NCBI GenBank assembly: GCA_018262835.1 | Contig: JADFDP010000019.1 | Location: 1 to 36,755, forward strand | DNA length: 36,755 bases | Reading direction: 5' to 3' | DNA from: Candidatus Aminicenantota bacterium | Lineage (GTDB): Bacteria > Acidobacteriota > Aminicenantia > UBA2199 | In this document: positions 1,401-26,334 of the stretch, piece by piece | Layout: each line of letters opens with the position of its first letter | Position numbering within the stretch: position 1 is the stretch's first letter | Notes under the pieces: generated by a model | What the model saw: only the letters and a program-made list of their open reading frames with translations | Databases searched by the model: none | What the model was told of the DNA's origin: nothing | Made by a program: the position numbers and the translations under genes

Positions 1401-1409
1401 GGAGAAAAA

Positions 1410-1640: not shown

Positions 1641-1720
1641 GGAGATTTTAGAGCAAAAAAGAATGGAATTTTATTGTATTAAAATATCAGTAGAATTTTA
1701 ACAATTTATTTAATTCATAC

Positions 1721-2584: not shown

Positions 2585-3224
2585 TAATTTTGTAAAGACT
2601 AAGCCTCTTCCCGATTGGGCTATCGAAAAAAAAATTAATAATTGGTTTTTTTACTCCGGAAAAAGCATGAACCCTGTCTTTAAAGACGGGGATATTATTT
2701 ATACAAAATCAGGGGACAAAATCGTTCCTGGTGATGTCATCGTATTTCGGGAGAAAAATAACAAGAAAATCACGGTACATCGGGTTGTTTACCTCACTAA
2801 GGAAGGATTTTTAACCCGTGGGGACAATAATACATTTTTTGATCGTGCCCCGGTTGCTCGAGAACAAATATTGGGCATTGCAAAATTCATTGATAATGGG
2901 AGCCAAGTTAAGGTTGTTAATGACGGAGATACAAGTTTAAAAAAAATAAAAATAAAATGGAGAATGCTGGACTTAACAAGGGCTTTGAAATTTCCCTATC
3001 GGTTTTTTTACCAAACTTTTAAAAAGACCGGAATCATGCATTTTCTTTTTGGGAAGTGGTTTGAAAAAAAAGTGACTATAATATATCTAGAAAACACTGC
3101 CGGTCCTTTAACGAAGCTTGCTTATAAGGGCAAAACCATAGCTGTGCAGTGGTCTAACGGACTGTTTAGTTGTAAAAAACTATTTGATCTGCTGATCGAT
3201 GAACATAAAATATTTTTTAATTAA
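2568..3224 (+). CDS. S24/S26-family serine protease, Sec11-like Ser/His type (cassette 1)
   Basis: A 218-aa protein whose ATG overlaps the end of the HPr-kinase-like gene by 17 bases. SGKSMNP (residues 30-36) supplies a candidate catalytic Ser33; GDVIVF and VHRVV follow, with His71, then TRGDNN (83-88) and Asp92. A His in place of the usual catalytic Lys is typical of the Sec11/SipW branch of type I signal peptidases. No N-terminal membrane anchor is obvious, which is unusual for a signal peptidase. A role in removing the leader of the precursor at 1410 is inferred from position. An upstream start at 2475 would lie inside the preceding gene and is rejected. Confidence 0.75.
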   Translation: METLYDNFVKTKPLPDWAIEKKINNWFFYSGKSMNPVFKDGDIIYTKSGDKIVPGDVIVFREKNNKKITVHRVVYLTKEGFLTRGDNNTFFDRAPVAREQILGIAKFIDNGSQVKVVNDGDTSLKKIKIKWRMLDLTRALKFPYRFFYQTFKKTGIMHFLFGKWFEKKVTIIYLENTAGPLTKLAYKGKTIAVQWSNGLFSCKKLFDLLIDEHKIFFN

Positions 3225-3231
3225 TAAAAAT

Positions 3232-3522
3232 TTATTTTTTATCAATGATTTTTCCGATGAATCCATTTGCTTTCAAATCATCTAAAAAGTCGTTCACTTG
3301 GACTTCAATTTCTGTTTCGGGTATGTTGTCATAGGATTTCTTTAAGGTGACTACAATGGCCGGAAGGTCTTTCTTGCCATCACAATGCTTCCAGATGAAC
3401 AACCCGGTGGAGTTGATTACCCGAATCTTGTTGGTATCGGGGTTGAATAGCAATGCCCCGTTGGGGTCCTTTTCGCGCAGGACCACATCAGGGTTGCGAA
3501 TGAGTAATCCATTATCTGACAT
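3232..3522 (-). CDS. PqqD-like peptide carrier (RRE domain), opposite strand
   Basis: A 96-aa protein with the PqqD layout: an N-terminal beta-rich half containing GALLFNPDTNKIRVIN, a G-x-F-I-W segment and a C-terminal helical part ending in DFLDDLKANGFI. PqqD proteins bind the leader peptide and deliver it to the radical SAM enzyme. It is convergent with the protease gene (7 bases between stops) and divergent from cassette 2. It has its own promoter (3557-3585). Composition is nearer to cassette 1 than to cassette 2, and cassette 2 has its own PqqD at 6140, so this one most likely serves cassette 1. Confidence 0.8.
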   Translation of the reverse strand: MSDNGLLIRNPDVVLREKDPNGALLFNPDTNKIRVINSTGLFIWKHCDGKKDLPAIVVTLKKSYDNIPETEIEVQVNDFLDDLKANGFIGKIIDKK

Positions 3523-3648: not shown

Positions 3649-3671
3649 TCCTGTGTGAAAAGGACATGGGA

Positions 3672-3851
3672 ATGAGCAAGCGCGTTTTGAAAAATCGGGG
3701 AAAATGGTCAAAGCCGCAATTGGTCATCATCGGCCGGGGAAAAGCCGGGGAAAATGTGTTGGCCGCATGCAAAGGCAACGGCGCCCGGAATCCGGTACAT
3801 GGCTACGGGCCCTGCCATCACACGCAATGCCTGACAAACCTCCCATCGTAG
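3672..3851 (+). CDS. RiPP precursor candidate of cassette 2 (KW-KP / GRG / ENVL leader type)
   Basis: A 59-aa peptide (61 aa if the ATG at 3666 is used; AAGGA at 3660-3664 is better spaced for 3672). The leader part has KWSKPQL, GRG and ENVLAACK; the tail has YGPC and C53, giving cysteines at 33, 48 and 53 with several His and Asn. It is the first gene after the promoter at 3620 and precedes the modifying enzymes. The peptide at 23913 shares KW-x-(K/R)P-x-L, GRG and ENVL-x2-CK in the same order, which strongly supports both being real. The core product is unknown. It shares no obvious sequence with the precursor at 1410. Confidence 0.72.
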   Translation: MSKRVLKNRGKWSKPQLVIIGRGKAGENVLAACKGNGARNPVHGYGPCHHTQCLTNLPS

Positions 3852-4891
3852 CCGGTATTTTTTCATCAAAAAAAATAAAAAACCAGGGACATGCTGATTC
3901 CGGGCAGGGGAAAGAAATCGCCTGTTTTGGCGGCGATGCGTTTCCCGGCGGTTCAAAAAAGCATTCGCATTGCCGCTATTTCCGCATCGCCGGGATCCGC
4001 ATTCGCCTGGAATCGGACCTGCCCATCCACGACTCCACTTTTGCCGCCAAATTCGAAAAATTTCGGATACCGAGGCCCCATTCGGAAGTGGTCAGGATCG
4101 CGCATCACTTTTCTCTCCCCATCATCCAGCCGGACAAGCTTGGACGGGAAATCTACCGCAAGGCGCCCTGGGCGATCTACCGCCGAGGTTCTTCCTGGAT
4201 CTACCTGGGCATCCGGCCCGGCCGTAAAATGCATTCTGCTTACTCGATGGCGATATTCAATGAAGCGCATACGTTCGGGCAGATCCATCATGAGGAAAGC
4301 AGTCTCTTCAGCCAGGGCAACCTGCATTCCCTGACTTTGTTTCCCACCGATCAGATCTGGCTGGCTCGGCTGCTGGCCGGTCGCCAGGGATTTATTTTCC
4401 ACGCCGCGGGAATGAAGGTCGGCGGCCGGGGGCTGCTCTTCGCCGGACACTCCGAGGCCGGAAAATCGACTGCGGTCATCCTGCTCCAGGGGCGGGGAGA
4501 AATCTTGTGCGATGACCGGATCATCGTCCGCCGCTGGCCCGATGGATTCCGCATCCACGGCACCTGGAGCCACGGTGACGTGCCGCAGGTATCGCCCGCC
4601 GCAGCGCCGCTGCGGGCCGTCCTGTTCCTGGAAAAGGCGAAATCCAACCGGCTGATTCCGATCGCGGATCCGCGGGAGGTCCTGAAACGCATCCTGCCCC
4701 TGCTGATCAAGCCGCTGGTCACGGCCGACTGGTGGGAAAAAACTTTGGCCGTGGTTGAAAAACTCGTCCGCGAAGTGCCGGCTTACCGTTTGCAATTCGA
4801 CCAAAGTGGAAAGATAAATGAAATCATTCGCGAACTGGTCACAAACCGCCAAAACAAAAACAAGCCGCGACGCCAGGGCCGGTTGCCTTGA
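3827..4891 (+). CDS. HPr-kinase-like ATPase of cassette 2
   Basis: A 354-aa protein if started at the ATG at 3827, which overlaps the precursor end by 25 bases. No ribosome site is clear, and the first 48 or so residues look poorly conserved; the family-like part begins near YFRIAGIRI (51-59). FHAAG (191-195), Walker A GHSEAGKS (207-214) and a DD pair (229-230) match the order in the cassette 1 protein at 1721, so the two are counterparts. The final part includes a VPAYRLQFD segment like VPGYELHFT at the end of the other copy. The substrate is unknown. Composition is GC-rich, in sharp contrast to the cassette 1 copy (46 G/C of 60 at 4561-4620). Confidence 0.75.
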   Translation: MPDKPPIVAGIFSSKKIKNQGHADSGQGKEIACFGGDAFPGGSKKHSHCRYFRIAGIRIRLESDLPIHDSTFAAKFEKFRIPRPHSEVVRIAHHFSLPIIQPDKLGREIYRKAPWAIYRRGSSWIYLGIRPGRKMHSAYSMAIFNEAHTFGQIHHEESSLFSQGNLHSLTLFPTDQIWLARLLAGRQGFIFHAAGMKVGGRGLLFAGHSEAGKSTAVILLQGRGEILCDDRIIVRRWPDGFRIHGTWSHGDVPQVSPAAAPLRAVLFLEKAKSNRLIPIADPREVLKRILPLLIKPLVTADWWEKTLAVVEKLVREVPAYRLQFDQSGKINEIIRELVTNRQNKNKPRRQGRLP

Positions 4892-4920
4892 GCCTTGCCT
4901 CCTGCTACAATGGAAACGCC

Positions 4921-6129
4921 ATGAAACGCTCGACCGTACCCCAGCCAAACGGTTCTGCCCGGGATACGGCATGCTATATTAAAAAAAAGGATTTGAACCG
5001 CGAGCCCATCTGGGGAGGGAAGGAGCCGCCCATTTCCCAGCTTGACATCGAATTGACCGAACGCTGCGACAACGATTGCATCCACTGCTCCATCAACCTT
5101 CCTGAAAATGACGCCAAGGCGAAAAAAAAGGAATTGAGCGCCAGGCAATGGAAAGACATCCTGAAACAGGCCGCTGACCTGGGAGTCATGACGGTGCGCT
5201 TTACCGGCGGGGAGCCGCTGCTGCGCGAGGACTTTGCGGATTTGTACGCCTTTGCCCGCTGTTTGGGCTTGAAAGTCATTTTATTCACCAACGCCCGCGG
5301 TATCACTCCGCAACTGGCCGCTTTGTTTGTCAAGATGCCGGCGCTGGAAAAGATCGAGGTCAGCGTGTACGGCATGCACCGGAAATCGTACGAAGCCGTC
5401 TCGCGCCGACCGGGGTCTTATGCGGAATTCCTCCGCGGGATCCATTGGCTCACCAAGAGCCATATCCCCTTCGTGGTTAAGGGTGCATTTTTGTCAGCCA
5501 ACAAAAAAGAGATCGCTGAGTTCGAGTCCTGGGCGGCGACCATTCCCTGGATGGACAGGCCCCCTTCCTATTCAATGACTTTCGACCTGCGCGGCCGCCG
5601 CGATTCCCCCAAAAAGAACCGGCTGATAAAAACCTTGCGGGCCACGCCGGGGGAAGTCATAGGCATCCTCAATCGCCACATGGAGGCCTATCGCCGGGAG
5701 ATGAGCCGGTTCTGCCGAAAGTTTCTCGGCTTGCCTGGGAAAAAACTGTTCGCTTGCGGCGCCGGCCGGGCCGTTTGCGTGGATGCCTACGGCCGCTTTC
5801 AGCCCTGTCTTTCGTTGCGGGCGCCGGATTTGGCTTATGACCTGAAAAAGGGGACATTGCGGGATGCCCTGACCCGCGTTCTCCCTAAGTTGAAAAAAGC
5901 ATCCGCGGTCAATCCCCTGTACCTGAAACGCTGCAGCCGTTGTTTTATTAAAGGGTTTTGCGAGCAATGCCCGGCCAAATCCTGGGCTGAGCATGGATCT
6001 TTGGATACCCCGGTCGAGTATCTCTGCGGAATCGCCCATGCCCAGGCCCGGGACCTGGGGCTGCTGGCCGCAGGCGAGAAGGGATGGGAAGTTTCCGCTT
6101 GGCGTGCCCGGATCACCAAAATGAAATGA
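4921..6129 (+). CDS. Radical SAM/SPASM peptide-modifying enzyme A (cassette 2)
   Basis: A 402-aa protein started at the ATG at 4921; an in-frame TTG at 4888 overlaps the previous stop and is less likely. The radical SAM motif is C49-x3-C53-x2-C56 (CDNDCIHC), followed by FTGGEPLLREDF. The C-terminal region has CGAG, PCLSL, CSRC, CEQC and YLCGIAHA, a SPASM-type set for auxiliary Fe-S clusters. It is closely similar in layout to the protein at 6953 (both have LDIEL/FDLEI, SINLP/YINLP, KKELS and a Cys-Gly-Ala-Gly motif), so the pair probably arose by duplication. It likely acts on the precursor at 3672 with the PqqD that follows after 10 bases. Confidence 0.88.
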   Translation: MKRSTVPQPNGSARDTACYIKKKDLNREPIWGGKEPPISQLDIELTERCDNDCIHCSINLPENDAKAKKKELSARQWKDILKQAADLGVMTVRFTGGEPLLREDFADLYAFARCLGLKVILFTNARGITPQLAALFVKMPALEKIEVSVYGMHRKSYEAVSRRPGSYAEFLRGIHWLTKSHIPFVVKGAFLSANKKEIAEFESWAATIPWMDRPPSYSMTFDLRGRRDSPKKNRLIKTLRATPGEVIGILNRHMEAYRREMSRFCRKFLGLPGKKLFACGAGRAVCVDAYGRFQPCLSLRAPDLAYDLKKGTLRDALTRVLPKLKKASAVNPLYLKRCSRCFIKGFCEQCPAKSWAEHGSLDTPVEYLCGIAHAQARDLGLLAAGEKGWEVSAWRARITKMK

Positions 6130-6139
6130 GAGGCAATCG

Positions 6140-6451
6140 ATGAAACTCACGGCAAAAGCCGGCGCGGTTTATGCTCCTTCCGGGGATATCGTGGCGCGCG
6201 AGATCGAGGGCGAGATCATCATCGTGCCTTTGACCGCCGGCATCGGCGACGCCGAGGATGATCTTTTTTCGCTGAACGAGACCGGCCGGGCTTTCTGGAA
6301 ACTCCTGGACGGAAAAAAGACCCTGGCCCAGATCGCCAGAACGCTCGCTGAAAAATACGATGCCCCGCCGGCCAGGATCGAAAAGGATATCCTGGGCCTG
6401 GCGGCCGAACTGCTCAAACGACGCATCATCAATGAAAAAAAATCCTTCTGA
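6140..6451 (+). CDS. PqqD-like peptide carrier (RRE) of cassette 2
   Basis: A 103-aa protein with the PqqD pattern: beta-strand half ending LFSLNETGRAFWKLLDGKKT, then a helical half with LAEKYDAPPARIEKDI and ELLKRRII. The ATG follows GAGAGG with normal spacing. It should bind the leader of the precursor at 3672 and present it to the radical SAM enzymes on either side of it. Its 3' end overlaps the protease gene by 20 bases. The conserved N-E-T-G-x-x-F/I-W segment is also present as N-S-T-G-L-F-I-W in the cassette 1 copy. Confidence 0.85.
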   Translation: MKLTAKAGAVYAPSGDIVAREIEGEIIIVPLTAGIGDAEDDLFSLNETGRAFWKLLDGKKTLAQIARTLAEKYDAPPARIEKDILGLAAELLKRRIINEKKSF

Positions 6452-6956
6452 AGCGGAACCCGGCGAAGATCGGGATGAGGGATTTTCCCTTTCGGCCCCG
6501 GTCATTATGGAGCTGATCGAGGCGGTCCATGAGAAAGGGGCGTCGTTCAGGTTTAAAGCCAAGGGCTACAGCATGACCCCGGCCATTCGCAGCAATGACG
6601 TCATCACCGTATCGCCCCTGAATGACATGATGCCCCGCCGCGGCGACGTGCTGGCCTTCCGTCATCCCGAGCGGCCGCAGATGCTGGTCCACCGCGTGCT
6701 GCACGCCATGGCGAGAAAATATTTTATCAAGGGCGACAATTGCCCTGAAGCCGATGGCTGGATCCCGGCGGAAAACATCCTGGGATTGATCACCAAAGTG
6801 GAGCGGCAGGGCAAGGCCCGTTTTTGGCCGAACCGTTCGGCACCTTCATTCGGGTCGAACTATTATCTGCTGTTTTATCCCCTATGGCCCCCCGTGCGCC
6901 GGGTTCTGGTCAAGGCCTGGCGCCGGCTGCGCCAGGCCAGCAAGCCGGGAAAATGA
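6432..6956 (+). CDS. S24/S26-family serine protease, Ser/His type (cassette 2)
   Basis: A 174-aa protein started at the ATG at 6432 inside the PqqD 3' end. KGYSMTP (44-50) holds candidate catalytic Ser47; RGDVLAF (70-76), LVHRVL with His87, and IKGDN (99-103, Asp102) follow in Sec11-like order. His replaces the Lys of classical bacterial signal peptidases, as in the cassette 1 copy at 2568. There is a hydrophobic patch near YYLLFYPLWPPV (about 140-151) but no N-terminal anchor. The likely role, leader removal or processing, is inferred from the gene neighbourhood. Its TGA overlaps the next ATG (ATGA). Confidence 0.78.
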   Translation: MKKNPSEAEPGEDRDEGFSLSAPVIMELIEAVHEKGASFRFKAKGYSMTPAIRSNDVITVSPLNDMMPRRGDVLAFRHPERPQMLVHRVLHAMARKYFIKGDNCPEADGWIPAENILGLITKVERQGKARFWPNRSAPSFGSNYYLLFYPLWPPVRRVLVKAWRRLRQASKPGK

Positions 6957-8086
6957 AAAAAAAATTTGCGGCAGCGACCGCGCTGCCGGAATTCCCGCTG
7001 TGGGGCCGGCTCGAGAAAAAACGCGTGCCCTTCTCCTTCGACCTTGAGATCACCGCCCGCTGCAACCATGACTGCCGCCATTGCTATATCAACCTGCCGG
7101 CCGGGGATCGGGCTGCCCAAAAGAAGGAATTGTCCCTTGCCCGGATCGGACGCATCGCCGGCCAGGCGGTCGAGCTGGGTGCCTTATGGTGCCTGCTCAG
7201 CGGCGGCGAGCCTTTGCTGCGCAAAGATTTTGCCGACATATACGTCATGCTGAAAAAGAAAGGTCTTTTGCTGTCGGTGTTCACCAACGCCAGCCTGGTC
7301 ACCGCTGAGCATGTCGCCTTGTTCAAGAAATATCCGCCCCGGGATGTCGAGGTCACGGTTTATGGAGCCACGCCCGAGACCCATGAGCGGGTCACCCGCC
7401 ATCCGGGCTCATATGCCGCGTTCCGTCGCGGCCTCGATCTGCTTCTGAAAAGCAACATCAAGGTGCGCTTGAAGGCCATGGCCCTGCGCGCCAATGTCGG
7501 GGAACTCGCTGCCATCGCCGCTTTCTGCCGGCAACACACCAAGGACTATTTTCGTTTTGATCCCCTGCTTCACCTGCGCTTTGACGGCGATGCCGGGCGC
7601 AACCGGGAGATCCTTGCCGAGCGTCTGTCCCCCGAAGAGATCGTGGCCATTGAACAAGCCGACGAGGAGCGTTCGGAAGCGCTGAAAAAAAATTGTGAGC
7701 AACTGATCTTTCCCGATGAGGGTCAGCGGAGCTGTCAGCACTTATTTCACTGCGGCGCGGGAAACGCCAGCTTTGCCGTCAGCTATGACGGCTATTTCCG
7801 CTTGTGCTCTTCGCTCTGGCATCCCGATTGCATATGCGACCTGAAAAAAATGACCCTGGCCGAGGCCTGGCAGCGCTTCGTTCCCCGGGTGCGCGCCATG
7901 ACTTCCGCCCAACCCGAGTTTCTGGAAAAATGCCGCTCCTGCCCGATCATCAACCTCTGCCTGTGGTGCCCGGCCAACGCCCACCTGGAGAGCGGCCGCC
8001 TCGACGCCTGGAGCGAGTATTTCTGCAAAGTGGCGCACGCCCGTGCCCGGTCCATCGGCAAAAGCGGCGGCCGTTTCCGAAAATAA
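6953..8086 (+). CDS. Radical SAM/SPASM peptide-modifying enzyme B (cassette 2)
   Basis: A 377-aa protein started at the ATG at 6953, overlapping the protease stop. The radical SAM motif is C37-x3-C41-x2-C44 (CNHDCRHC), followed by LSGGEPLLRKDF. The tail has HCGAG, LCSSL, CRSC, CLWC and a final FCKVAHA, matching the SPASM-type set of the protein at 4921. Having two related enzymes for one short precursor suggests two different modifications or a partner/scaffold role for one of them. It is the last gene of the cassette; the next gene is on the other strand. Confidence 0.88.
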   Translation: MKKKFAAATALPEFPLWGRLEKKRVPFSFDLEITARCNHDCRHCYINLPAGDRAAQKKELSLARIGRIAGQAVELGALWCLLSGGEPLLRKDFADIYVMLKKKGLLLSVFTNASLVTAEHVALFKKYPPRDVEVTVYGATPETHERVTRHPGSYAAFRRGLDLLLKSNIKVRLKAMALRANVGELAAIAAFCRQHTKDYFRFDPLLHLRFDGDAGRNREILAERLSPEEIVAIEQADEERSEALKKNCEQLIFPDEGQRSCQHLFHCGAGNASFAVSYDGYFRLCSSLWHPDCICDLKKMTLAEAWQRFVPRVRAMTSAQPEFLEKCRSCPIINLCLWCPANAHLESGRLDAWSEYFCKVAHARARSIGKSGGRFRK

Positions 8087-9061: not shown

Positions 9062-10150
9062 ATGAAAATCAAAAAAGTTTTGCTCATTGGATTTCTGGTT
9101 CTGTTGATGGTGGGGGCTCTGCTTTTTCTCTTTTCCCCAAAAAACGATAAAAATGGCGGCCTGAAATTCGTCGCGGTCAAAAAAGGGAACATTTCCGAAA
9201 AGGCATTGGCCGTAGGCACCATCGAGCCCGAAAAAGAAATCAAGGTGAAGTCGACCATTCCGGGGATCGTCGCGGAAGTGTACTTCAAGGTGGGCGACCG
9301 CATCGAAAAGGACAAGCCCCTGTTCAAGATTTCCCCCAATCCCACTCCCTTGGAATACGTGGAGGCCCGGCGCAACATGGAAGTCGCGCAGATACTCAGG
9401 GAAAAAATCCAGAATGAGCGGGACCGCAAAGTGAAGATGTACAAGGCGCAGCTGGTTTCCGATTCGGAAATGGAGGAGACGGAGTCCCGCTTCAATGAGA
9501 CCTCCCTGCGTTACAAAATCGCCCAGGAGCGCTTTGAGCTGCTGGAAAAAGGACGGATCCAAATGGTCAACCGTTCGGTGGACTCCATCGTGAAATCGCC
9601 GATGTCGGGAATCGTTCTGCAGCAAAGCGCCTTCGAGGGTGATGCCGTGGTGCCCCTGACCAATTTCCAGCCCGGCACCGAAATGTGCTCCATGGCCGAT
9701 ATGGGCATGCTGCGCTTCAAAGGGAAAGTCGATGAGATCGATGTCGGCAAATTGCTGCCGGGCATGATCGCCGACATCCAGGTCGGAGCGCTGCTCGATG
9801 CCAAGGTGACCGGCCGGCTGGAGCGCATCTATCCCAAGGCCGAAAAGGAGGGCAACGCCACCATGTTCGGCCTTGAAATCGCCATTATCGATGCCGGGAA
9901 GGTCACGCTGCGCGCCGGGTATTCGGCCACGGCCTACCTCAAGATCAAGGACAAAAAAGACATCCTGATCATCCCGGAACGGTTGATCACCTTCGAGAAC
10001 GACAAGCGTTACGTGGAAACGATGCGGAACGGTAAAATCGAAAAAAAGGAGGTCCAGATCGGGCTTTCCGATGGCTTGAATATCGAGATCCTTTCCGGAT
10101 TGCGGGCCGGCGAGCCAGTGGTCGAGCGACCGCCCCGGGAGATCGAATGA
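9062..10150 (+). CDS. Periplasmic adaptor (HlyD/MacA-type membrane fusion protein)
   Basis: A 362-aa protein with one N-terminal membrane segment (about 5-25) and the standard adaptor layout: a biotinyl-lipoyl-like half motif (KVKSTIPGIVAEVYFKVGDR), a coiled-coil hairpin (about 100-170), the second lipoyl half (SPMSGIVLQQSAFEGDAV) and a beta-barrel region. GAGGT precedes the ATG. It overlaps the next gene by 4 bases and would link the permeases at 10147 and 11376 across the periplasm to an outer-membrane channel, which is not encoded here. The substrate is unknown; MacA relatives handle peptides, macrolides or lipids. Export of a cassette product is possible but unsupported. Confidence 0.85.
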   Translation: MKIKKVLLIGFLVLLMVGALLFLFSPKNDKNGGLKFVAVKKGNISEKALAVGTIEPEKEIKVKSTIPGIVAEVYFKVGDRIEKDKPLFKISPNPTPLEYVEARRNMEVAQILREKIQNERDRKVKMYKAQLVSDSEMEETESRFNETSLRYKIAQERFELLEKGRIQMVNRSVDSIVKSPMSGIVLQQSAFEGDAVVPLTNFQPGTEMCSMADMGMLRFKGKVDEIDVGKLLPGMIADIQVGALLDAKVTGRLERIYPKAEKEGNATMFGLEIAIIDAGKVTLRAGYSATAYLKIKDKKDILIIPERLITFENDKRYVETMRNGKIEKKEVQIGLSDGLNIEILSGLRAGEPVVERPPREIE

Positions 10151-11373
10151 TCCTGGCTTTTTTCCGCAACCTGTCCCGCGACCTGGTGCGCCAGCCCCTG
10201 CGGACCATCCTGACCCTTTCCGGTGTGACCTGGGGAACATTCGCCGTGATCCTGCTGCTGGCTTTCGGCACCGGCATCGGCAAGCAGCAAATGAAGCAAT
10301 TCCGCGGGCTCGGGCAGAGCATCATCCTGGTGTTTCCCGGGCAGACCACGATGACATACAACGGGCTGCCCAAAGGCCGTCCGGTCCAGGTAACCCCCGA
10401 TGAACTGCGCCGGGTCAAGGAACGGGTGCCGGGAGTCCGGACGCTTTCACCGGAATTCATATCGAGCCGCAACATTCGCTATGGCCGGGAGCAGCTGCTC
10501 AATACCGTGCGCGGCGTGGATGTGCCGTTCGAAAGCATCCGCAACACCATCCCGGGCCATGGGCGCTTCATCAATGATATCGATGTGCAGGAACGCCGGC
10601 GCAATTGCTTCCTGGGCGCGACCATCGCCAAAAACCTCTTCAAGGGCCTGGACCCGGTCGGCCAGCGGGTGATGATCGAGGGCGTGCCTTTTACCGTCGT
10701 CGGCGTGATGATCGAAAAGGACCAGAACAGCAATTACAACGGCCAGCGCGACACGCATTGCGCCTTCATTCCCTGGACCACCTACATGACCCTGTACGGC
10801 GAGAAATATGTCCAGAATTTCATTGTCCAGCCGAGCGATCCGGCCCTGTCCAAGCAGACCATCGCCGCCTTGCGGAACTATTTAGGCGAACGGCTGGGAT
10901 TCAATGCCCAGGACAAGGACGCCTTGTTCGTCTGGGATTTTTCCGACTTCGAGCGGCAGTTCAACGTGTTCTTTACGGCCTTCAACATTTTCCTGGGGAT
11001 CATCGGCTCGTTTACCCTGCTGGTGGGCGGCGTGGGGGTGGCCTCGATCATGATGGTGGTGGTGGAGGAGCGGGTGCGGGAAATCGGCATCAAGCTGGCG
11101 GTCGGCGCCAAGCGCCGCGATATCCTGTGGCAGTTTTTTGCCGAAGCCAATTGCATCATCCTGATCGGCGGCGCCATGGGTTTCTTCCTGGCGGCATTGC
11201 TGCTGGCCCTGCTGCCGGTTGAGAAACTCCAGGAATATATCGGCATCCCCAAGCTCAATCCCCTGGTAGGAATCGTCACCGTGCTGATCCTCGTGGCCAT
11301 CGGTACCCTGTCCGGCCTGACGCCGGCGCGCCGGGCCGCGGCCACCGATCCGATCGTGGCGCTCAGGAAGTAA
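10147..11373 (+). CDS. ABC transporter permease, MacB/FtsX type (first)
   Basis: A 408-aa protein with one membrane segment near the N-terminus (about 20-45), a large MacB-type periplasmic domain containing GRFINDIDVQERR and GVPFTVVGVM, and three C-terminal membrane segments of the FtsX domain. VEERVREIGIKLAVGAKRRDIL is the usual cytoplasmic coupling segment that meets the ATPase. It lacks an ATP-binding domain, unlike true MacB; that is supplied by the gene at 12642. Its start overlaps the adaptor stop, and the next permease begins 2 bases after its stop. Confidence 0.87.
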   Translation: MILAFFRNLSRDLVRQPLRTILTLSGVTWGTFAVILLLAFGTGIGKQQMKQFRGLGQSIILVFPGQTTMTYNGLPKGRPVQVTPDELRRVKERVPGVRTLSPEFISSRNIRYGREQLLNTVRGVDVPFESIRNTIPGHGRFINDIDVQERRRNCFLGATIAKNLFKGLDPVGQRVMIEGVPFTVVGVMIEKDQNSNYNGQRDTHCAFIPWTTYMTLYGEKYVQNFIVQPSDPALSKQTIAALRNYLGERLGFNAQDKDALFVWDFSDFERQFNVFFTAFNIFLGIIGSFTLLVGGVGVASIMMVVVEERVREIGIKLAVGAKRRDILWQFFAEANCIILIGGAMGFFLAALLLALLPVEKLQEYIGIPKLNPLVGIVTVLILVAIGTLSGLTPARRAAATDPIVALRK

Positions 11374-11375
11374 CC

Positions 11376-12626
11376 ATGCGTGTGCAGCTTCTGCATTTAT
11401 TCTGGAATGAATTCCGCAAGCGCCGGGAAAAAACCAGCCTGATCACGTTCGCCATCGCCTGGGGAGCGCTGTCATTGCTGCTGCTGATGTCCTTCGGCCG
11501 CGGTCTTTCCAACGCCGGCAGCGTCAATTTCAAGGGTCTGGGCAACACCCTCATCATGGTATCACGGGGCCAGACCAGCAAGCCCTACCAGGGACTGCCG
11601 CGCGCCCGGCGCATTCACATCCACATGGAAGATCTGGAATTGCTCAAGCGTCAGATCCCGGGCATTGCCATGATCTCTCCCGAGGCCAACAACAACCACA
11701 GTATCTCCTATCACAGCAAGGAGTCCAACCGCTCGATCAATGGCGTTTACCCCTGTTTTGCCGAGATGCGTTCCCAGGTCCCCCAGGCCGGCGGCCGTTT
11801 CATCAATGACCTGGATCAGGAAAAAGCCCGCCGCGTGGCCTTTATCGGCTGGAATGTGGCCAAGGAGCTCTTCGGCGGCGGCAATCCGGTCGGCAAGGAG
11901 ATTCGCATCGAGCGGACGCCTTTCACGGTGGTCGGGGTCATGAAAAAAAAGCAGCAAAGCTCCACCTACCAGGGGCCTGATTCGGAAACCGTCTATATCC
12001 CTTTCTCCACTTTCTGCCAGATCGATTTCCAGCGCTTTCTGGACCGCATTCATATCCGCCCAGCCGATCCCAAGGATGCCTTGTTCATGGAGAACCAGGT
12101 GCGCCGCATTTTGGGACGCAAGTACCGCTTCGCCGATGACGATGCCAATGCCGTGAATTTCTGGAACACGATCCGGGATTATGAAACCGGGGCCAAGATA
12201 TTCAAGGGCATTGAAATTTTTCTGAGCATCATCGGCGGCCTGACGCTGCTCATCGGCGCCGTGGGCGTGACCAACCTGATGTATGCCGTTGTCAAGGAGC
12301 GGACCCGGGAGATCGGCATCAAGATGGCCCTGGGGGCGCGCCGGCGCCATATTGTCATGCAGTTCTTCCTGGAGACCTCCGTCATTTTTTTCAAGGGGAC
12401 ACTGTGGGGGACCCTGGTGGCATTCAATATCGTTAGCCTGGTGAACTTGATTCCTGTCGGTTATGAGGATTTCGGCATAAAAGCCTACCTGCTGCGGCCG
12501 ATCTTTTCGTTCGACATCCTGATTATTTTCCTGGTGGTTCTTTGCGTTTTGGTCTTTGTTTCCGGAATTTTTCCGGCCTTGCGGGCTTCGCGGCAGAACC
12601 CGATCGACGCCCTGCGTTATGAATAG
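11376..12626 (+). CDS. ABC transporter permease, MacB/FtsX type (second)
   Basis: A 416-aa protein with the same layout as the preceding permease: N-terminal membrane segment, periplasmic MacB-type domain (GGRFINDLDQEKARR, RTPFTVVGVMKKK) and FtsX domain with VKERTREIGIKMALGARRRHIV. The two permeases are clearly related but diverged, so they probably form a heterodimer rather than being a recent duplication. The last residues (ALRASRQNPIDALRYE) match the family ending. Transport substrate is unknown. Confidence 0.87.
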   Translation: MRVQLLHLFWNEFRKRREKTSLITFAIAWGALSLLLLMSFGRGLSNAGSVNFKGLGNTLIMVSRGQTSKPYQGLPRARRIHIHMEDLELLKRQIPGIAMISPEANNNHSISYHSKESNRSINGVYPCFAEMRSQVPQAGGRFINDLDQEKARRVAFIGWNVAKELFGGGNPVGKEIRIERTPFTVVGVMKKKQQSSTYQGPDSETVYIPFSTFCQIDFQRFLDRIHIRPADPKDALFMENQVRRILGRKYRFADDDANAVNFWNTIRDYETGAKIFKGIEIFLSIIGGLTLLIGAVGVTNLMYAVVKERTREIGIKMALGARRRHIVMQFFLETSVIFFKGTLWGTLVAFNIVSLVNLIPVGYEDFGIKAYLLRPIFSFDILIIFLVVLCVLVFVSGIFPALRASRQNPIDALRYE

Positions 12627-12641
12627 CATCCGAGGTGGATC

Positions 12642-13319
12642 ATGATCGAATTCCGCAATATCTCGAAAGTGTATAAAATGGGCGAAGTCGAATTCGTCGC
12701 CCTCAAGGGCGTCTTCATTGCCGTGCAGAAAGGCGGCTTCATCTCCATCATGGGCCCATCCGGTTCCGGCAAGTCCACCCTGATGAACATCATCGGCTGT
12801 CTCGATACCCCGACCGAAGGATCTTATTATCTCGATGGTGAAAATGTTTCCGGGCTGACCTTCGACCAATTGTCGACCATCCGCAACCGCAAGGTCGGCT
12901 TTGTTTTTCAGAATTTCAATTTGCTGCCCTACGCCTCGGCTTATGAAAATATCGAGCTGCCGATGTTGTTCAACGGCAAAAAAAACACCGAGCGCAAGCG
13001 CCGGGTCAATGAGTTGCTGGAAATGGTGGGCTTGCTGCCCTGGGCCAGGCACCGGCCGACCGAAATGTCCGGAGGACAGCAGCAGCGGGTGGCCATTGCC
13101 CGGGCCTTGGCCATGGATCCGCCGATCATTCTGGCCGATGAGCCGACCGGCAATCTCGATTCCAAGAGCGGCCACGAAATCATGGATATTTTTTCCCGGC
13201 TGTGGAAGGAAGGCCGGACCATTCTCATGGTGACGCACGATCCGGCCATCGCCGCCTTTTCCCAAAGCACCATTCGCCTTCTGGACGGGGCAGTCCAGGA
13301 GAATGGCGCCGCCCATTGA
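12642..13319 (+). CDS. ABC transporter ATPase, MacB/LolD type
   Basis: A 225-aa ATP-binding subunit. Walker A is GPSGSGKS (38-45), the signature is MSGGQQQRVAIARA, and Walker B is ILADEPTGNLD, with a switch His in VTHDP. The GNLDSKSG stretch is typical of the LolD/MacB/FtsE group that energises mechanotransmission rather than substrate passage through the membrane. It ends the four-gene operon begun at 9062. GAGGTGG precedes the ATG. Confidence 0.93.
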   Translation: MIEFRNISKVYKMGEVEFVALKGVFIAVQKGGFISIMGPSGSGKSTLMNIIGCLDTPTEGSYYLDGENVSGLTFDQLSTIRNRKVGFVFQNFNLLPYASAYENIELPMLFNGKKNTERKRRVNELLEMVGLLPWARHRPTEMSGGQQQRVAIARALAMDPPIILADEPTGNLDSKSGHEIMDIFSRLWKEGRTILMVTHDPAIAAFSQSTIRLLDGAVQENGAAH

Positions 13320-20633: not shown

Positions 20634-20661
20634 AATACCTGCATTTGGCAAAAAGGTTACA
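20634..20661 (-). promoter_or_regulatory. Probable autoregulated ECF-sigma promoter
   Basis: On the minus strand, TGTAACC (20661-20655), 15 bases, then GGTATT (20639-20634). The spacing and both elements are the same as at 19150-19177. Start near 20627, about 28 bases before the sigma ATG. Confidence 0.65.
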
Positions 20662-20704
20662 AATAACTATCGGGCCTTTAGGGCATCAGCGCGGCCCGGT
20701 GAAA

Positions 20705-20733
20705 TTGACTTTAGCTGGGGGAACCAGTATGAT
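20705..20733 (+). promoter_or_regulatory. Sigma-70-type promoter for the NtrC-like activator
   Basis: A -35 TTGACT (20705-20710), 17-base spacer and -10 TATGAT (20728-20733). The predicted start near 20740 leaves about 10 bases before the ATG at 20750. It makes the upstream in-frame ATG at 20729 unlikely, since that codon would not be transcribed. Confidence 0.5.
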
Positions 20734-20749
20734 AAAAAAAGGGGAAGCC

Positions 20750-22171
20750 ATGGACGAAAAGCGCAATGATCCATTGCCCATATTGCTGGTCGACGACGAA
20801 ACCCAGGTCCTGCTTCTTTACAGCGGCCTGCTCAAGGGAGCCGGGATCGAAACGGTCGTCACCCTGGATGACAGCCGCCGCGTGCTCCCGTTCCTGCGGG
20901 AGAACCGGGCCGCGGCCGTGCTGACCGACATGAACATGCCCTTTCTCGGCGGCCGGGAGCTGCTGACCCAGATCAAGCAGGAGTTTCCGGAAGTGCCGGT
21001 CCTGATCGTCACCGGCGTGAACGATATCGGGACCGCGGTCGAGTGCATGCGCCTGGGAGCCAGCGACTACCTGGTCAAGCCGGTGGAAAAAAGCCGCCTG
21101 ATCTCCAGTTTGCAGCGCACCCTGGAAATCGCGCGCTTGCAGGATCAAGTGTCATCCCTTACCCGGCACTTGCTGAGTGAAGGCCTGCGCACTCCCGGCG
21201 CTTTCGCCCACCTGGTCACCGGCAGCCGGAAAATGCTCGCCCTTTTCAAATACATCGAAGTCGTTGCCGAATCACCTTATCCCGCCCTGATCGTCGGGGA
21301 AACGGGTGTCGGCAAAGAACTGGTCGCGCGCGCTCTCCACCTGGCCGGCGACCCCCATCGCCCGTTCGTCGGCGTGAATGTGGCCGGGCTCGACGACAAC
21401 ATGTTCTCCGACACCCTCTTCGGCCACAAAAAGGGGGCCTTCACCGGTGCCGAAGCCCATCGCGACGGCCTGATCTCCCAGGCCCAGGACGGCACCCTAT
21501 TCCTTGATGAAATCGGCGATCTGAACCCCACTTCCCAGGTCAAGCTTCTGCGTCTCATCCAGGAAAAGGAGTATTATCCCCTGGGGATTGACCAGCCGAA
21601 AAAAACCAACGCCCGTATCGTCTGCTCGACCAACCACGACCTCAAGAAGCTGGTCGAAAAGGGGTCCTTCCGCAACGACCTTTATTTCCGGCTCAACACC
21701 CACGTGGTCGTCGTCCCGCCGCTGCGCGAACGCAGGGATGACATCCCGATGCTCCTGGGCCATTTCCTGGAAGAATCGGCTCAAGCGCTGCGCAAGCGGA
21801 TTCCGACGACGCCGCCCGAACTGTTGGCCCTCCTTGCCGCCTACGATTTTCCGGGCAATGTCCGCGAACTGCAGACCCTGGTTGCCGACGCCGTCTCCCG
21901 CCACCGTGCCGGGGTGCTTTCCATGGAAAGCTTCCGCAAAGCGATCGGCGCCGGTTCTCTGAATGCTTCAGCCAAGGGCCCGGATGCGGCGGGCCTGAGC
22001 ACCGAAGCCTATCTGGCGAACCTACCGACCCTCAAGCAGGCCGAGGAATTTCTGATCCGCCGTGCCCTGGAACAGGCCAAGGACAACCAAGGCATCGCCG
22101 CCTCGCTGTTGGGGGTTACCCGCCAGGCCCTGAACAAGCGCCTGGTGCGCGAAAAGAAAAAAAAATCCTGA
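20750..22171 (+). CDS. NtrC-type sigma-54-dependent response regulator
   Basis: A 473-aa protein with three parts. The receiver domain (about 9-125) has DD15-16, phosphoacceptor Asp60 (LTDMNMP) and Lys110. The AAA+ domain has Walker A GETGVGKE (183-190), GAFTGA (229-234, the loop that contacts sigma-54), Walker B LFLDEIGD and an arginine region (FRNDLYFRL). The C-terminal Fis-type helix-turn-helix is DNQGIAASLLGVTRQALNKRL. Its receiver suggests a histidine kinase partner, perhaps one of the kinases at 24091-35572. Immediately downstream is a good -24/-12 promoter (22421), the most likely target. AGGGGAA precedes the chosen ATG. Confidence 0.93.
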   Translation: MDEKRNDPLPILLVDDETQVLLLYSGLLKGAGIETVVTLDDSRRVLPFLRENRAAAVLTDMNMPFLGGRELLTQIKQEFPEVPVLIVTGVNDIGTAVECMRLGASDYLVKPVEKSRLISSLQRTLEIARLQDQVSSLTRHLLSEGLRTPGAFAHLVTGSRKMLALFKYIEVVAESPYPALIVGETGVGKELVARALHLAGDPHRPFVGVNVAGLDDNMFSDTLFGHKKGAFTGAEAHRDGLISQAQDGTLFLDEIGDLNPTSQVKLLRLIQEKEYYPLGIDQPKKTNARIVCSTNHDLKKLVEKGSFRNDLYFRLNTHVVVVPPLRERRDDIPMLLGHFLEESAQALRKRIPTTPPELLALLAAYDFPGNVRELQTLVADAVSRHRAGVLSMESFRKAIGAGSLNASAKGPDAAGLSTEAYLANLPTLKQAEEFLIRRALEQAKDNQGIAASLLGVTRQALNKRLVREKKKKS

Positions 22172-22420
22172 AAGCCGGCTGAAATCCTCCAGACGCCGCG
22201 GCATCCTCTTTTCCATTTTAAACCGATTCCCCCACACCCTGCGCCATTCGTTTCTTATGGACAAAAGTTGCTTGCTTGGTGAATACCCTGTGATATAGAG
22301 CGTCTCCGGCTCATTGCTTTCGCGGGCTGCAATGTTTGTCGCGGCCGGCCTTTCTGCGGCATGGCATGGACATATAAAGCAAAATCATTGTCAGTAAAGC
22401 ATTTCGGGACATATTTGGAC

Positions 22421-22437
22421 TTGGTACGATCCGTGCA
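22421..22437 (+). promoter_or_regulatory. Sigma-54 (-24/-12) promoter
   Basis: TTGGTACGATCCGTGCA matches the consensus YTGGCACGRNNNTTGCW at 12 of the 14 defined positions, with GG and GC exactly 10 bases apart. Transcription should start near 22448, 25 bases before the ATG at 22473. The activator gene ends 250 bases upstream. The rest of the 22172-22420 gap shows no gene and no clear activator-binding repeat or terminator. Confidence 0.7.
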
Positions 22438-22472: not shown

Positions 22473-23297
22473 ATGAAAAAAAGAACAATCAAGTCATTGG
22501 CGGTCGCGGTTTTACTGGCGGCTTTGCTCGCTTTTCCGGCCCACAAGCTCTCGGCGGTAACCGAGGGTACGATAATACTGGGAAATGTCATGGGCAGCGG
22601 GGTGACCACTCTGGTGCGCGGTTTCCTTCAGGGCCAGGTGCACAACTTCAAGGACGCGGTCAAGTGCCTGGCTTACGGGTCGGCTTCGGGATACGGCTTC
22701 TATCAATCAAAGAAACTGGTCGCCGCCGATCGCGTTTTCGGCGGCATCCTGCTGGCCAATCTCTCGGCCTCGGTGATAGACAATGTCACATCCGGAGAAG
22801 GACCGTTCTCCTATCTCGGCTTTTCCCTGCCCCTGGTTCGTATCGAGGTCGCCACGCCCTTGGCGCGGCAAAAACGTTCGCTGCTGCGGGTCACGGTGTC
22901 GCCGCGTGATGCCATCAGCCTGGCGCTCAGCTTTAAAAAGTCGGACCGGGTTTCGCTGCGCAACGGCATGCTGGCTTTCGAGGCCGACACGCCACTGGCC
23001 AGCCACGTTCTCGGCTGGGCCTACAGCCTTTTCCCCACCACGCTCAGCGGAACGGACGAGTCGGTTTACCGCCACGAAATGGTGCACGTAGTGCAGAGCC
23101 TGCAGCTCATGGCCGCGTCCCCGGAACCGTTTGTCAAGAGCTACCGGCGCGAAGAGGGCAAGGCCAAGCTGCTGAGCTTCGCCGGATTTCGCATGCAGGC
23201 CATCGGCCTGGCCAACGATCTGACCCTCTCCAAGGTCCAGTCCTATTCAAAATACTGGAGAGAGGCTGAAGCTTATCAGCTGGTACAATCCCTGTGA
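22473..23297 (+). CDS. Exported HExxH (zincin-type) putative metalloprotease
   Basis: A 274-aa protein with a signal peptide (about 1-28, ending KLSA) and a HEMVHVVQS motif (His201-Glu202-x2-His205), the zinc site of many metalloproteases. REAEAY (263-268) supplies possible Glu third ligands in gluzincin fashion. The middle contains small glycine-rich stretches and no further recognised domain. GGAGGTG precedes the ATG. It is the first gene of a sigma-54 operon ending in a RiPP-like precursor, so trimming of the exported peptide is an attractive role, but that is inferred. I cannot name the family; DUF4157-like proteins share the HE-x-x-H-VVQ pattern. Confidence 0.65.
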   Translation: MKKRTIKSLAVAVLLAALLAFPAHKLSAVTEGTIILGNVMGSGVTTLVRGFLQGQVHNFKDAVKCLAYGSASGYGFYQSKKLVAADRVFGGILLANLSASVIDNVTSGEGPFSYLGFSLPLVRIEVATPLARQKRSLLRVTVSPRDAISLALSFKKSDRVSLRNGMLAFEADTPLASHVLGWAYSLFPTTLSGTDESVYRHEMVHVVQSLQLMAASPEPFVKSYRREEGKAKLLSFAGFRMQAIGLANDLTLSKVQSYSKYWREAEAYQLVQSL

Positions 23298-23326
23298 TGG
23301 GGCGCAAGGAGAATCGGGGGGAAAAC

Positions 23327-23842
23327 ATGGGAAACCTTATGGAAATGGGAACAGTTCAAGCTCTGGGCGGCACGGAATTGGAATTGAGTCTGGCTAATGA
23401 GCTGCGCGTGCCCAAGCGCGAGGTCACGGCCGATGTCACTTTCCTTTACGCCGGGGATCAACCGCAGCCGTGCCTGTTTTACCTCAGCTTTTACTCGCCG
23501 CGGCGCTGCGGCGAAGAGAGCCTGTCCGAGTATCTCAACTCGGTGCACTCCTTCTTGCCCCTGCGCGACAAGGCCAGCGGCGAGTTTTTCATCGTCCATG
23601 TCAACCAGATCCTGACCGTGCGGGAAGCGCCGGTAATGGATATGAGCGGCGGTCGGCCGCTGCAGTTGCATTTGCAGAACGGCGCCGCGCTGCAACTGGT
23701 TTCATGCGAGCCGCGCCATGCCTGGCGTTCCCGGCCGATCGATCTGCTCAACGATGCGGAACGTTTCGTCGCTTTCTTCCAGGACGATCACTCCCGCATT
23801 CATGTGAACAAGCGCCACATTGCCCGGGTGGAAGGACTATGA
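23327..23842 (+). CDS. Unknown 171-aa protein in the sigma-54 operon
   Basis: The ATG at 23327 follows a GGGGGGAAAA ribosome site; in-frame starts 30 or 33 bases earlier are possible but less well placed. No signal peptide or membrane segment is visible. Two similar segments occur, FIVHVNQILTVRE (about 88-100) and SRIHVNKRHIARVEG (about 156-170), each with the pattern HVN-x3-I-x-x-VE, reminiscent of FlbD-type small beta proteins. The protein is not recognised beyond that. Its stop overlaps the next small ORF by 4 bases. Confidence 0.65.
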   Translation: MGNLMEMGTVQALGGTELELSLANELRVPKREVTADVTFLYAGDQPQPCLFYLSFYSPRRCGEESLSEYLNSVHSFLPLRDKASGEFFIVHVNQILTVREAPVMDMSGGRPLQLHLQNGAALQLVSCEPRHAWRSRPIDLLNDAERFVAFFQDDHSRIHVNKRHIARVEGL

Positions 23843-23916
23843 CCATGACCCCGGCCCTGCAATTCATTGATGCCCTGGATAAATTCCTCGGCAGCAAAAT
23901 CGGAGGAAAATCGTGA
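23839..23916 (+). CDS. Possible 25-aa small ORF between the unknown gene and the precursor
   Basis: ATG at 23839 overlaps the upstream stop (ATGA) and its TGA overlaps the GTG of the precursor at 23913, so it would couple translation through the operon. AAGGA lies just upstream. The peptide (MTMTPALQFIDALDKF...) has an amphipathic helix-like pattern. It could be a real small protein or only a translational bridge. Confidence 0.4.
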   Translation: MTMTPALQFIDALDKFLGSKIGGKS

Positions 23917-24089
23917 AAAGCAAAATGAAATGGATCCGGCCAAAATTGATCGTGCTGGGCCGGGGGCGGCTTGAAGAAAACGTGCTGCTGGGATGCAAGA
24001 CCATGGGAATGGTCGGGCCTCAGAGGCCGGCCCATCAGGCTTGCATGCACCCGGCGCACGGACCCTGCCAGGTGCAAACGAATTCCTGA
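23913..24089 (+). CDS. RiPP precursor candidate, paralogue of the peptide at 3672
   Basis: A 58-aa peptide with a GTG start and a good ribosome site (GGAGGA, 23902-23907); an ATG at 23925 is an alternative. It shares with the precursor at 3672 the order KW-x-(K/R)P-(Q/K)-L, GRG, ENVL-x2-CK and a tail with GPC, and has cysteines at 28, 44 and 52. The core differs (CMHPAHGPC here against GPCHHTQC there). No modifying enzyme is adjacent; the cassette 2 enzymes at 3827-8086 are the obvious candidates. It ends one base before the convergent kinase stop at 24091. It is too short to be found by size filters. Confidence 0.7.
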   Translation: MKSKMKWIRPKLIVLGRGRLEENVLLGCKTMGMVGPQRPAHQACMHPAHGPCQVQTNS

Positions 24090-24090
24090 T

Positions 24091-26334
24091 TCAGCCCAGA
24101 ACCTCGCCGATCTTCTCCATGATCGATGCGCGCGAGCTGGGTTTTTCGACAAAATGCACCTTGGGCAGCTCCAAGCCGGCGCGCTTCAAGTACCCTTCGC
24201 TGTGGCCGGAAGTGAAGATCACGGCTGCTCCGGGATGGAGTTTCCGGACCCGGGTGGCGACTTCGACTCCTGAAATGCCGGGCAGGACGACATCGCAGAA
24301 GAGCAGGTCGATGCGTTTCATTTCTTCTGCGATTTTCAGGGCCTGCTTGCCGTCGGCGGCCATTTGCACCGCCAGGCCCATGGATTCCAGGATCTCGCGC
24401 ATCAGCTCGCGGATGTCCTGCTCGTCTTCGACCAGCAGCACCGAGCGGCCGTCGAAACGCCGCTCTGCGCCCGGCGCCGGCTCCTGGGTCGACGTCTCGC
24501 TGATGCGCGGCAGGATGATGATGAATGTTGAGCCCTGGCCCGCTTCGCTCTCGGCCCAGACCGCGCCGTGGTTCTGGCTGACGATGCCGAACACCGAGGC
24601 CAGGCCCAGGCCCGTGCCCTCGCCCTTGGGCTTGGTGGTGTAGAACGGCTCAAAAACCCGCGCCAGAACCTGGGGCGTCATGCCCGTGCCGCTGTCACGC
24701 ACGCGGATGGCCGTGTGGTCACCGGCCGACAGCCCCGGATGCTCGGCGGCCAGGGCTTCGTCGACGCGCATCGGCAGTGATTCGAGGGTCAGCCTCCCAC
24801 CGGCGGGCATGGCGTCGCGGGCGTTAAGCACCAGATTGATCAGCACCTGTTCGATCTGCGCGGAGTCGATGAGCATGCGGCCGGCGTCGGCATGCAGCTC
24901 AAGCTGGAGTTCGATCCCCTCTCCCAGGAGACGGCGCACCATTCGCTCCAGGTCCTTGATGGTGCGGTTGACGTCGAGGACCGTGGGCGCGGCGGCCTGG
25001 TGGCGGCTGAATCCCAGGATCTTGGCCACCAGTTTGGAGGCGTTCATCCCCGCCTGCAGCATGAGGCGCAGGCGGTCGCTGTTGCTGTTGCTTTCATTTT
25101 CGTAGAGCAGCATCTCGGAGTAGCCGTTGATGATGGTCAGGTAGTTGTTGAAGTCGTGGGCGATGCCGCTGGCCAGGCGTCCCAGGGAATCCAGCTTGGC
25201 GGCCTGGATCAGCTGCTCCTCAAGCCTCTTTTCCTTGGTGAAGTCGGAAGCGATGCTGACGTAATGGCTGATGGCTCCCTTGTCGTCAAATACAGGGGAG
25301 ATGATGCTGCGCTGGTGGTACTGCGAGCCGTCCTGGCGCTGGTTGATGAATTCTCCCGCCCACGACCTGCCGCTGGCGATGATCTCCCACATCTGCCGGG
25401 TGGCTTCATCGGATATTTTTTCGCTTTTCAGGAAATTGATATTCCTGCCCAGTGCCTCCACCGAGTTGTAGCCGGTCAAGATCTCAAAGGCCGGGTTGGT
25501 GTAGACGATGACGCCTTGGCGGTCGGTGATGAGCACCGACTCGCTGGATGAGTGGATCGCCGTCTGCAGCAGGGTGAGCGTCTCCTCGCGTTTCTTTTTT
25601 TCGGTGACGTCGCGGATGATGCCCTGGATGCCGCTTATTTTTCCGTCCTTGTCGACCATGGCATTGGCGGTTTCCATGCCCTGGATGATGTCGCCTTTCT
25701 TGTTTTTAAGTTTCAGTTCGTATTCTTTCAGGCTTTTTTTGCTTTTAATCTGAGTAAAAAATATTTTTCGATCTCGGGGATCGGCATAGAGCCGATCCGG
25801 CTGGCTTCCCAGTAGCTCGTTGCGTTCATAACCGAATAGTTTCAATCCGGCCGGATTGATCTCCAGCAGGCTTCCCGACTTGTCGGAAATGTAGATCACG
25901 TCCTGGGAATTTTCGAACAGGGAGCGGAACCGGGCCTCGCTCTCCTTGAGCCTCATTTCGAAGCCGTGCTTGTACAGGGCCATTTCGATGGTGGTCTTCA
26001 GCTCGATCTCCTGGAAGGGCTTGGGAATGTAGCCATAGGGCTTTGTTTTCTTGGCCCGCTCCAGGGTGGGTTCGTCGGCATAGGCGGTCAAGTAGATGAT
26101 CGGGATATCCAGGTGCTCCAGGATCTGCTCGGCGGCGGCGATGCCGTCCACGGCGCCTTGCAGGCGGATATCCATCAGGATCAGGTCGGGTTTTTTCTCC
26201 AATGCCTCGGCCACGGCCGCTTCGCCCGAATTGAGGATGTCGATCACTTCATAGTCGAATTTTTTCAGGGCCCCGGCGATGACCGAAGCGATGATGGCTT
26301 CGTCTTCGACGATCAGGATCTTGGCTTTGGCCAT
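24091..26334 (-). CDS. Hybrid histidine kinase, REC-PAS-PAS-HisKA-HATPase-REC
   Basis: A 747-aa soluble protein; AAGGAGGAG precedes the ATG. N-terminal receiver (about 1-125, phosphoacceptor Asp55 in LILMDIRL), two PAS domains (about 135-255 and 255-380), dimerisation/phosphoacceptor region with GIAHDFNN, ATPase domain (LNARDAMPAGG, DSGTGM, GEGTGLGLASVFGIV), and a C-terminal receiver (LLFCDVVLPG). Receivers at both ends indicate a phosphorelay whose input comes from another kinase, plausibly one encoded upstream. It has no membrane segment. It is the last gene of the minus-strand signalling block and convergent with the sigma-54 operon. Confidence 0.92.
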   Translation of the reverse strand: MAKAKILIVEDEAIIASVIAGALKKFDYEVIDILNSGEAAVAEALEKKPDLILMDIRLQGAVDGIAAAEQILEHLDIPIIYLTAYADEPTLERAKKTKPYGYIPKPFQEIELKTTIEMALYKHGFEMRLKESEARFRSLFENSQDVIYISDKSGSLLEINPAGLKLFGYERNELLGSQPDRLYADPRDRKIFFTQIKSKKSLKEYELKLKNKKGDIIQGMETANAMVDKDGKISGIQGIIRDVTEKKKREETLTLLQTAIHSSSESVLITDRQGVIVYTNPAFEILTGYNSVEALGRNINFLKSEKISDEATRQMWEIIASGRSWAGEFINQRQDGSQYHQRSIISPVFDDKGAISHYVSIASDFTKEKRLEEQLIQAAKLDSLGRLASGIAHDFNNYLTIINGYSEMLLYENESNSNSDRLRLMLQAGMNASKLVAKILGFSRHQAAAPTVLDVNRTIKDLERMVRRLLGEGIELQLELHADAGRMLIDSAQIEQVLINLVLNARDAMPAGGRLTLESLPMRVDEALAAEHPGLSAGDHTAIRVRDSGTGMTPQVLARVFEPFYTTKPKGEGTGLGLASVFGIVSQNHGAVWAESEAGQGSTFIIILPRISETSTQEPAPGAERRFDGRSVLLVEDEQDIRELMREILESMGLAVQMAADGKQALKIAEEMKRIDLLFCDVVLPGISGVEVATRVRKLHPGAAVIFTSGHSEGYLKRAGLELPKVHFVEKPSSRASIMEKIGEVLG

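Follow-up and report, generated by a model that had tools for sequence, protein, structure and literature searches.

Several described peptide systems resemble parts of the locus presented here. The prochlorosins and synechococsins are each made by one modification machine (ProcM, SyncM) that serves numerous precursors dispersed across the genome (PMC10783134). In lasso peptide systems, HPr-kinase-related lasso kinases phosphorylate the C-terminal serine and the leaders carry a YxxPxL motif (PMC10368454). The nearest named set to the enzymes described below is SynChlorMet (SCM; NCBIfam TIGR04248-TIGR04251), in which an HPr-kinase-like protein is found with a PqqD relative and two radical SAM/SPASM proteins. 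We analysed a 36,755-nt stretch of a Candidatus Aminicenantota bacterium genome (the window), in which an enzyme cassette of this general make-up, cassette 2, opens with a precursor gene, pre1. A second precursor gene, pre2, lies about 18-20 kb away in an operon with a sigma-54 promoter. We consider it likely that pre2 is a genuine RiPP precursor under sigma-54 control which is matured by the distant cassette 2, according to the scheme given below.

The pre2 gene (23913..24089, forward strand, as all features below unless the reverse strand is given) encodes a 58-aa peptide with the translation (V/M)KSKMKWIRPKLIVLGRGRLEENVLLGCKTMGMVGPQRPAHQACMHPAHGPCQVQTNS, and its GTG start is positioned behind GGAGG. 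The leader covers approximately residues 1-29, ends with ..ENVLLGCK and contains the motif W7-x2-P10-x-L12 ... E22-x-VL-x2-CK. It is followed by a Cys-bearing core with C-x5-S at the C-terminus. Pre1 (3666..3851, translation MGMSKRVLKNRGKWSKPQLVIIGRGKAGENVLAACKGNGARNPVHGYGPCHHTQCLTNLPS) is 61 aa long when read from the first ATG and 59 aa from the second; genes were called with a simple script. When the whole own genome was searched with pre2 as the query, pre1 was found at E 3.6e-7 and no other match was significant. We built a family HMM from 61 homologues that belong to other genera and phyla; it picked exactly two of the 900 ORFs in the window, pre2 and pre1, at E 8e-16 and 5e-13. These searches confirm the original prediction that the 58-aa peptide is akin to the precursor near position 3672, and the two cores are as unlike as it had stated. 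The distance from pre2 is 17.8 kb to the start of the PqqD gene, 19.0 kb to the first radical SAM gene and 20.2 kb to pre1, close to the 20 kb that had been given for the likely enzymes. A sigma-70 promoter had also been proposed for pre1. The elements TTGACT-N17-TATAAA can be read by eye at about 3620, but the promoter scanner did not list them.

The family was gathered from 148 related genomes, with whole pre2 as the query, and from a named genome collection, which was scanned with the leader-anchored pattern PEExVL[TL]xCK. Together they gave 100 distinct precursors. The hosts are Aminicenantes, other Acidobacteriota, Chloroflexi, Desulfobacteraceae, Geobacter, Smithella, Omnitrophota, KSB1, Calditrichota, Kiritimatiellae, Thermoleophilia and methanogens, so the family apparently spans bacteria and methanogenic archaea. 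It is also apparently without a name so far: it matched no model in Pfam, NCBIfam or PHROGs, and we found no description of it in the open-access literature searched. W-x2-P-x-[LIVM] is present in 93 of the 100 precursors and E-x-[VIL]L-x2-CK in 97, and the span from the W to the K of CK is 23 residues in 89 of the 90 that could be measured. The GRG that was also claimed for pre1 and pre2 is not family-wide. In 96/100 precursors the peptide ends in Ser or Thr (against 4-28% at the next eleven positions). The pattern used for the collection covers leader residues only, so it did not select for the C-terminal Ser at those loci. Cys is found at position -7 in 71/100, and most members have two to four core Cys. 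Pre2 is a short gene with a ribosome-binding site, and its family combines leader motifs that are kept in 93-98 of the 100 members with variable cores, as expected of an RRE-dependent RiPP precursor. At L109, L117, L128 and in genome G164 (locus L135), methanogens included, there are 4-8 precursors per genome with differing cores, which is a library-like arrangement.

The genes that fill cassette 2 (3666-8086) match kinase, radical SAM, PqqD and S24/S26 profiles only. They encode an HPr-kinase-like enzyme (3704..4891, with the real start probably at about 3827) that has weak HprK/ScmC matches, radical SAM protein 2 (4888..6129; PF04055), a predicted PqqD-like leader-binding protein (6140..6451; PF05402, E 5.9e-17), an S24/S26-like peptidase (6435..6956; profile matches) and radical SAM/SPASM protein 3 (6956..8086; PF04055, SPASM weak). 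The HPr-kinase-like sequence carries the P-loop GHSEAGKS, an upstream His and a CDD motif, comparable to H..G-x4-GK[ST]..DD. In many relatives (for example L038, L040, L041, L052 and L117) this gene is fused to an N-terminal radical SAM/SPASM domain, giving a protein of about 670 aa, and the window has the kinase part only. A set of genes for HlyD, two MacB-like permeases and an ABC ATPase (9062..13319) is a candidate exporter; its orthologues adjoin the cassette in L050 and L052.

The leader pattern had been expected to occur in homologues near radical SAM/PqqD genes, and this was borne out. In 29 of the 46 named loci the precursor is found with radical SAM 2, radical SAM 3 or PqqD of the cassette-2 type, and in 25 of the 46 with the HPr-kinase-like enzyme. 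The linkage to enzymes and PqqD expected of RRE-dependent RiPP precursors is thus seen for the homologues, whereas the enzymes for pre2 lie about 18-20 kb off. Relatives of the window's genome likewise have the precursor beside the kinase, radical SAM, PqqD and S26 genes of the cassette. Across 16 genomes of the genus, all of them draft assemblies, precursor and radical SAM 3 are both present in 8, the precursor alone in 2, the enzyme alone in 0 and neither in 6 (Fisher p 0.0035, not corrected for relatedness). The two exceptions are G012, where a radical SAM stub lies beside the precursor at a contig end, and G014 (86% complete), where pre2 is present and the cassette-2 radical SAM is not detectable, which speaks against maturation of pre2 by cassette 2.

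The machine to which pre2 belongs is indicated by a Kiritimatiellae precursor (L129) that lies inside a cassette. Its core reads ..AGPNRPAAQACAHPARGPCSAIAVT and shares 71% identity over 21 residues with the pre2 core ..VGPQRPAHQACMHPAHGPCQVQTNS. This near-identity ties pre2 to the cassette-2 type of machine, and since pre2 is closer to the L129 precursor than to pre1, it is not a local duplicate of pre1. Precursors away from a single machine were found, besides pre2, in G150, G155, G161 and G164. The draft assembly G150 contains one complete cassette. The contig that carries it lacks a precursor, and both precursors of this genome were found on contigs other than this one. The other three genomes have both cassette-side and remote precursors. 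The split arrangement, which the original prediction regarded as the strongest candidate for an undescribed system, is not unique to this locus, as dispersed precursors recur in other phyla. From this recurrence, in-trans supply of precursors seems to be customary in the family. Comparison, through the co-occurrence, the linkage and the L129 core, gives good support to maturation of pre2 by cassette 2 in trans; that two substrates share one machine, as had been suggested, is inferred from this comparison.

It is unlikely that pre2 is matured by another cassette of the same genome, either cassette 1 (195-3522) or cassette 3 (contig C22), even though cassette 3 is present in 5/5 genomes with pre2, including G014, in which no cassette 2 was detectable. 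Cassette 3 is also found in genomes without pre2 (G002, G003 and G007), and family members elsewhere accompany enzymes of the cassette-2 types. Moreover, both cassettes encode precursors of their own with different leaders (YEKP.. and YxKPxLRVV..GCK), which score 0.1-6.9 bits against the family HMM, compared with 79.8 for pre2. Cassette 1 itself resembles the SynChlorMet set, with a radical SAM protein that scores 380 bits to ScmF (cut-off 400) and with ScmC- and ScmD-like proteins, and a 76-aa ORF at 1410-1640 (MKKRIYEKPKSTSLDSLDVVHGACW..) is likely its precursor. Cassette 3, which was seen at L073, L074, L062, L064 and L065, contains a very large subtilase-containing protein, PqqD, a radical SAM protein, an HPr-kinase-like gene and a 60-aa precursor of the form KxYxKPxLRVV..GCK..C..C..GS.

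Pre2 follows the genes for an exported HExxH protein (operon gene 1, 22473..23297) and a DUF6812 protein (operon gene 2, 23294..23842; Pfam PF20660), with no maturation enzyme nearby, as originally predicted. A sigma-54 (-24/-12) promoter TGGTACGATCCGTGCA (22422..22437) is positioned directly upstream of the first gene and at the same place in 7 orthologous loci. It is preceded by a conserved pair of activator half-sites, GACAAAAGTTGC (22260..22271) and an inverted second one (22329..22340, reverse strand). The half-sites are 67-69 bp apart in 7 orthologous loci, where the promoter comes 92-93 bp after the second; G006 has a similar -24/-12 site. In a genome-wide pattern search the paired pattern occurred only once in the own genome. 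The conserved promoter and the unique upstream pair support the separate sigma-54 control that had been proposed for pre2. The presumed regulator is an NtrC-like sigma-54 activator with a receiver domain and GAFTGA (20645..22171; Pfam Sigma54_activat, Response_reg), whose gene adjoins the operon in 5/5 genomes with pre2. A receiver-PAS-histidine kinase-receiver protein (24091..26334, reverse strand) is encoded convergently to the operon and is retained together with it. Upstream of the orphan precursors of other phyla, a sigma-54 promoter scan gave nothing better than shuffles, so the sigma-54 control appears to be special to the genus. The remote precursors in L098, L115 and L122 lie directly downstream of histidine kinase/response regulator genes, without a sigma-54 site.

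In the exported HExxH protein, H201, E202, H205, Q208, E264 and E266 are invariant in an alignment of 11 sequences. It had no match in Pfam and none to PDB folds; we rejected its assignment to a known peptidase, as neither sequence nor fold matched. The core of its structural model is fairly confident (pLDDT 77) and perhaps represents a new metalloprotease-like fold. The protein is also present without pre2.

The NtrC-like gene, the HExxH and DUF6812 genes, pre2 and the convergent histidine kinase are kept in five genomes (G000, G009, G013, G014 and G015), and the DUF6812 gene is kept in the operon of 6 genus genomes. G012 has the HExxH-DUF6812 operon with a clean loss of pre2. This means that the operon works without pre2 and does not depend on it; pre2 is a retained operon member with its own role. 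In G015, a PilT/PilU-like ATPase gene (L035:10168-11559, PF00437) is intact between DUF6812 and pre2, while G009 and G014 (L034, L036) have clear deletion remnants of it next to an intact pre2. The gap in the window between DUF6812 and pre2 (23843..23912) is possibly a remnant of the same gene, by a weak likeness at the protein level only; the gap gave no DNA-level match to the PilT gene. The presence of a PilT-like gene hints at a link between the sigma-54 operon and type IV pili.

The clean loss in G012 and the PilT remnants in relatives' operons could also mean that a stray precursor copy lies in the operon and has lost its maturation, so that pre2 would be a relic or an unmodified decoy. 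This would agree with a pN/pS near 1 among the three closest pre2 copies (0.69-0.97, few changes), but over longer distances from the window copy the ratio is 0.34-0.42. All five genomes have pre2 in intact form, although in at least two of them the adjoining PilT gene has decayed; every leader and C-terminal motif is retained, and the promoter and its upstream sites are conserved. Together these findings make such a relic very unlikely. That the Cys/Ser conservation, with two to four core Cys in most members, stems from a small peptide with a metal-binding or structural function, unmodified and sharing its leader by descent only, is also very unlikely. A fixed W-CK spacing (23 residues, 89/90) with cores free to vary is a mark of leader-guided modification, and the family is linked in many phyla to genes for radical SAM proteins, PqqD and peptidases.

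For pre2 matured by cassette 2, we infer the leader binding, the modification chemistry, the C-terminal phosphorylation and the export of the product as follows. The PqqD-like protein of the cassette-2 type would read and hold the W-x2-P-x-L leader of pre2. The two radical SAM enzymes would then modify the Cys-bearing core, probably by thioether or other cross-links, and the HPr-kinase-like enzyme would probably phosphorylate the C-terminal Ser. The S26-like peptidase would cleave the leader and free the product, which the MacAB-like transporter may export. Cassette 2 would serve pre1 and pre2 alike, and synthesis of pre2 would require that the promoter of the HExxH-DUF6812-(PilT)-pre2 operon is activated by the neighbouring NtrC-like protein. 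The kinase step is proposed because lasso kinases act on a C-terminal Ser in systems whose leaders carry YxxPxL, and because the family ends in Ser/Thr and the cassette holds a kinase. However, the C-terminal Ser could serve another purpose, e.g. export or recognition.

More tentatively, and with the balance somewhat against it, the family could represent widespread radical-SAM-cross-linked, C-terminal-Ser-phosphorylated peptides, with one cassette and scattered precursors under different signal circuits, here a two-component/sigma-54 switch. In that case the product may be a surface or signalling peptide made under particular conditions, given that the switch is linked to a PilT-like motor gene. 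The precursor family gives a widespread enzyme cassette its substrates, and the occurrence of a near-invariant C-terminal Ser/Thr together with an HPr-kinase-like enzyme leads to a precise prediction that can be tested. If cassette 2 modifies pre2, as it very probably does, a single peptide-modifying machine can receive substrates that are under separate control, and the split locus illustrates how transcription alone could switch the machine between products. Mining tools limited to enzyme neighbourhoods will miss precursors such as pre2.

Compared with the described systems, the cassette-2 proteins score far below the curated SCM cut-offs (in bits, 40.3 against 125 for ScmC, 28.3 against 100 for ScmD, 92.5 against 400 for ScmE and 72 against 400 for ScmF), and we therefore rejected SCM as the home of the precursor family. 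SCM cassettes occur together with the cassette-2 type in some genomes, and the true ScmC matches sit in separate cassettes which resemble cassette 1 of the window. Lasso systems, with their lasso kinases and B1 leader-binding protein, share with cassette 2 a PqqD-like binder, an HPr-kinase-related enzyme and a C-terminal Ser, here as the proposed target. Where phosphorylated lasso peptides of the paeninodin type have YxxPxL, the precursors here have WxxPxL, with W in place of Y in 93/100. No lasso cyclase or B2 protease was found among the profile matches of the cassette 2 genes, which encode radical SAM enzymes instead, and the precursor core is Cys-bearing. Sactipeptide and ranthipeptide maturases are also radical SAM/SPASM enzymes that act on Cys-bearing peptides. 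The cassette 2 radical SAM proteins match the StsB and AlbA models weakly, far below the family cut-offs, and those systems differ in having another leader, while cassette 2 adds the HPr-kinase-like enzyme. The prochlorosins, like the pre2 system, have precursors away from one machine, but they use a lanthipeptide synthetase and Nif11-type leaders; neither a LanM synthetase nor a Nif11-type leader was matched in the cassette proteins or the precursors. Here the machine consists of radical SAM, PqqD and kinase proteins, and the remote precursor sits in a sigma-54 operon. One machine with scattered precursors is already known from prochlorosins; the precursor family and its regulated split form seem to be undescribed.
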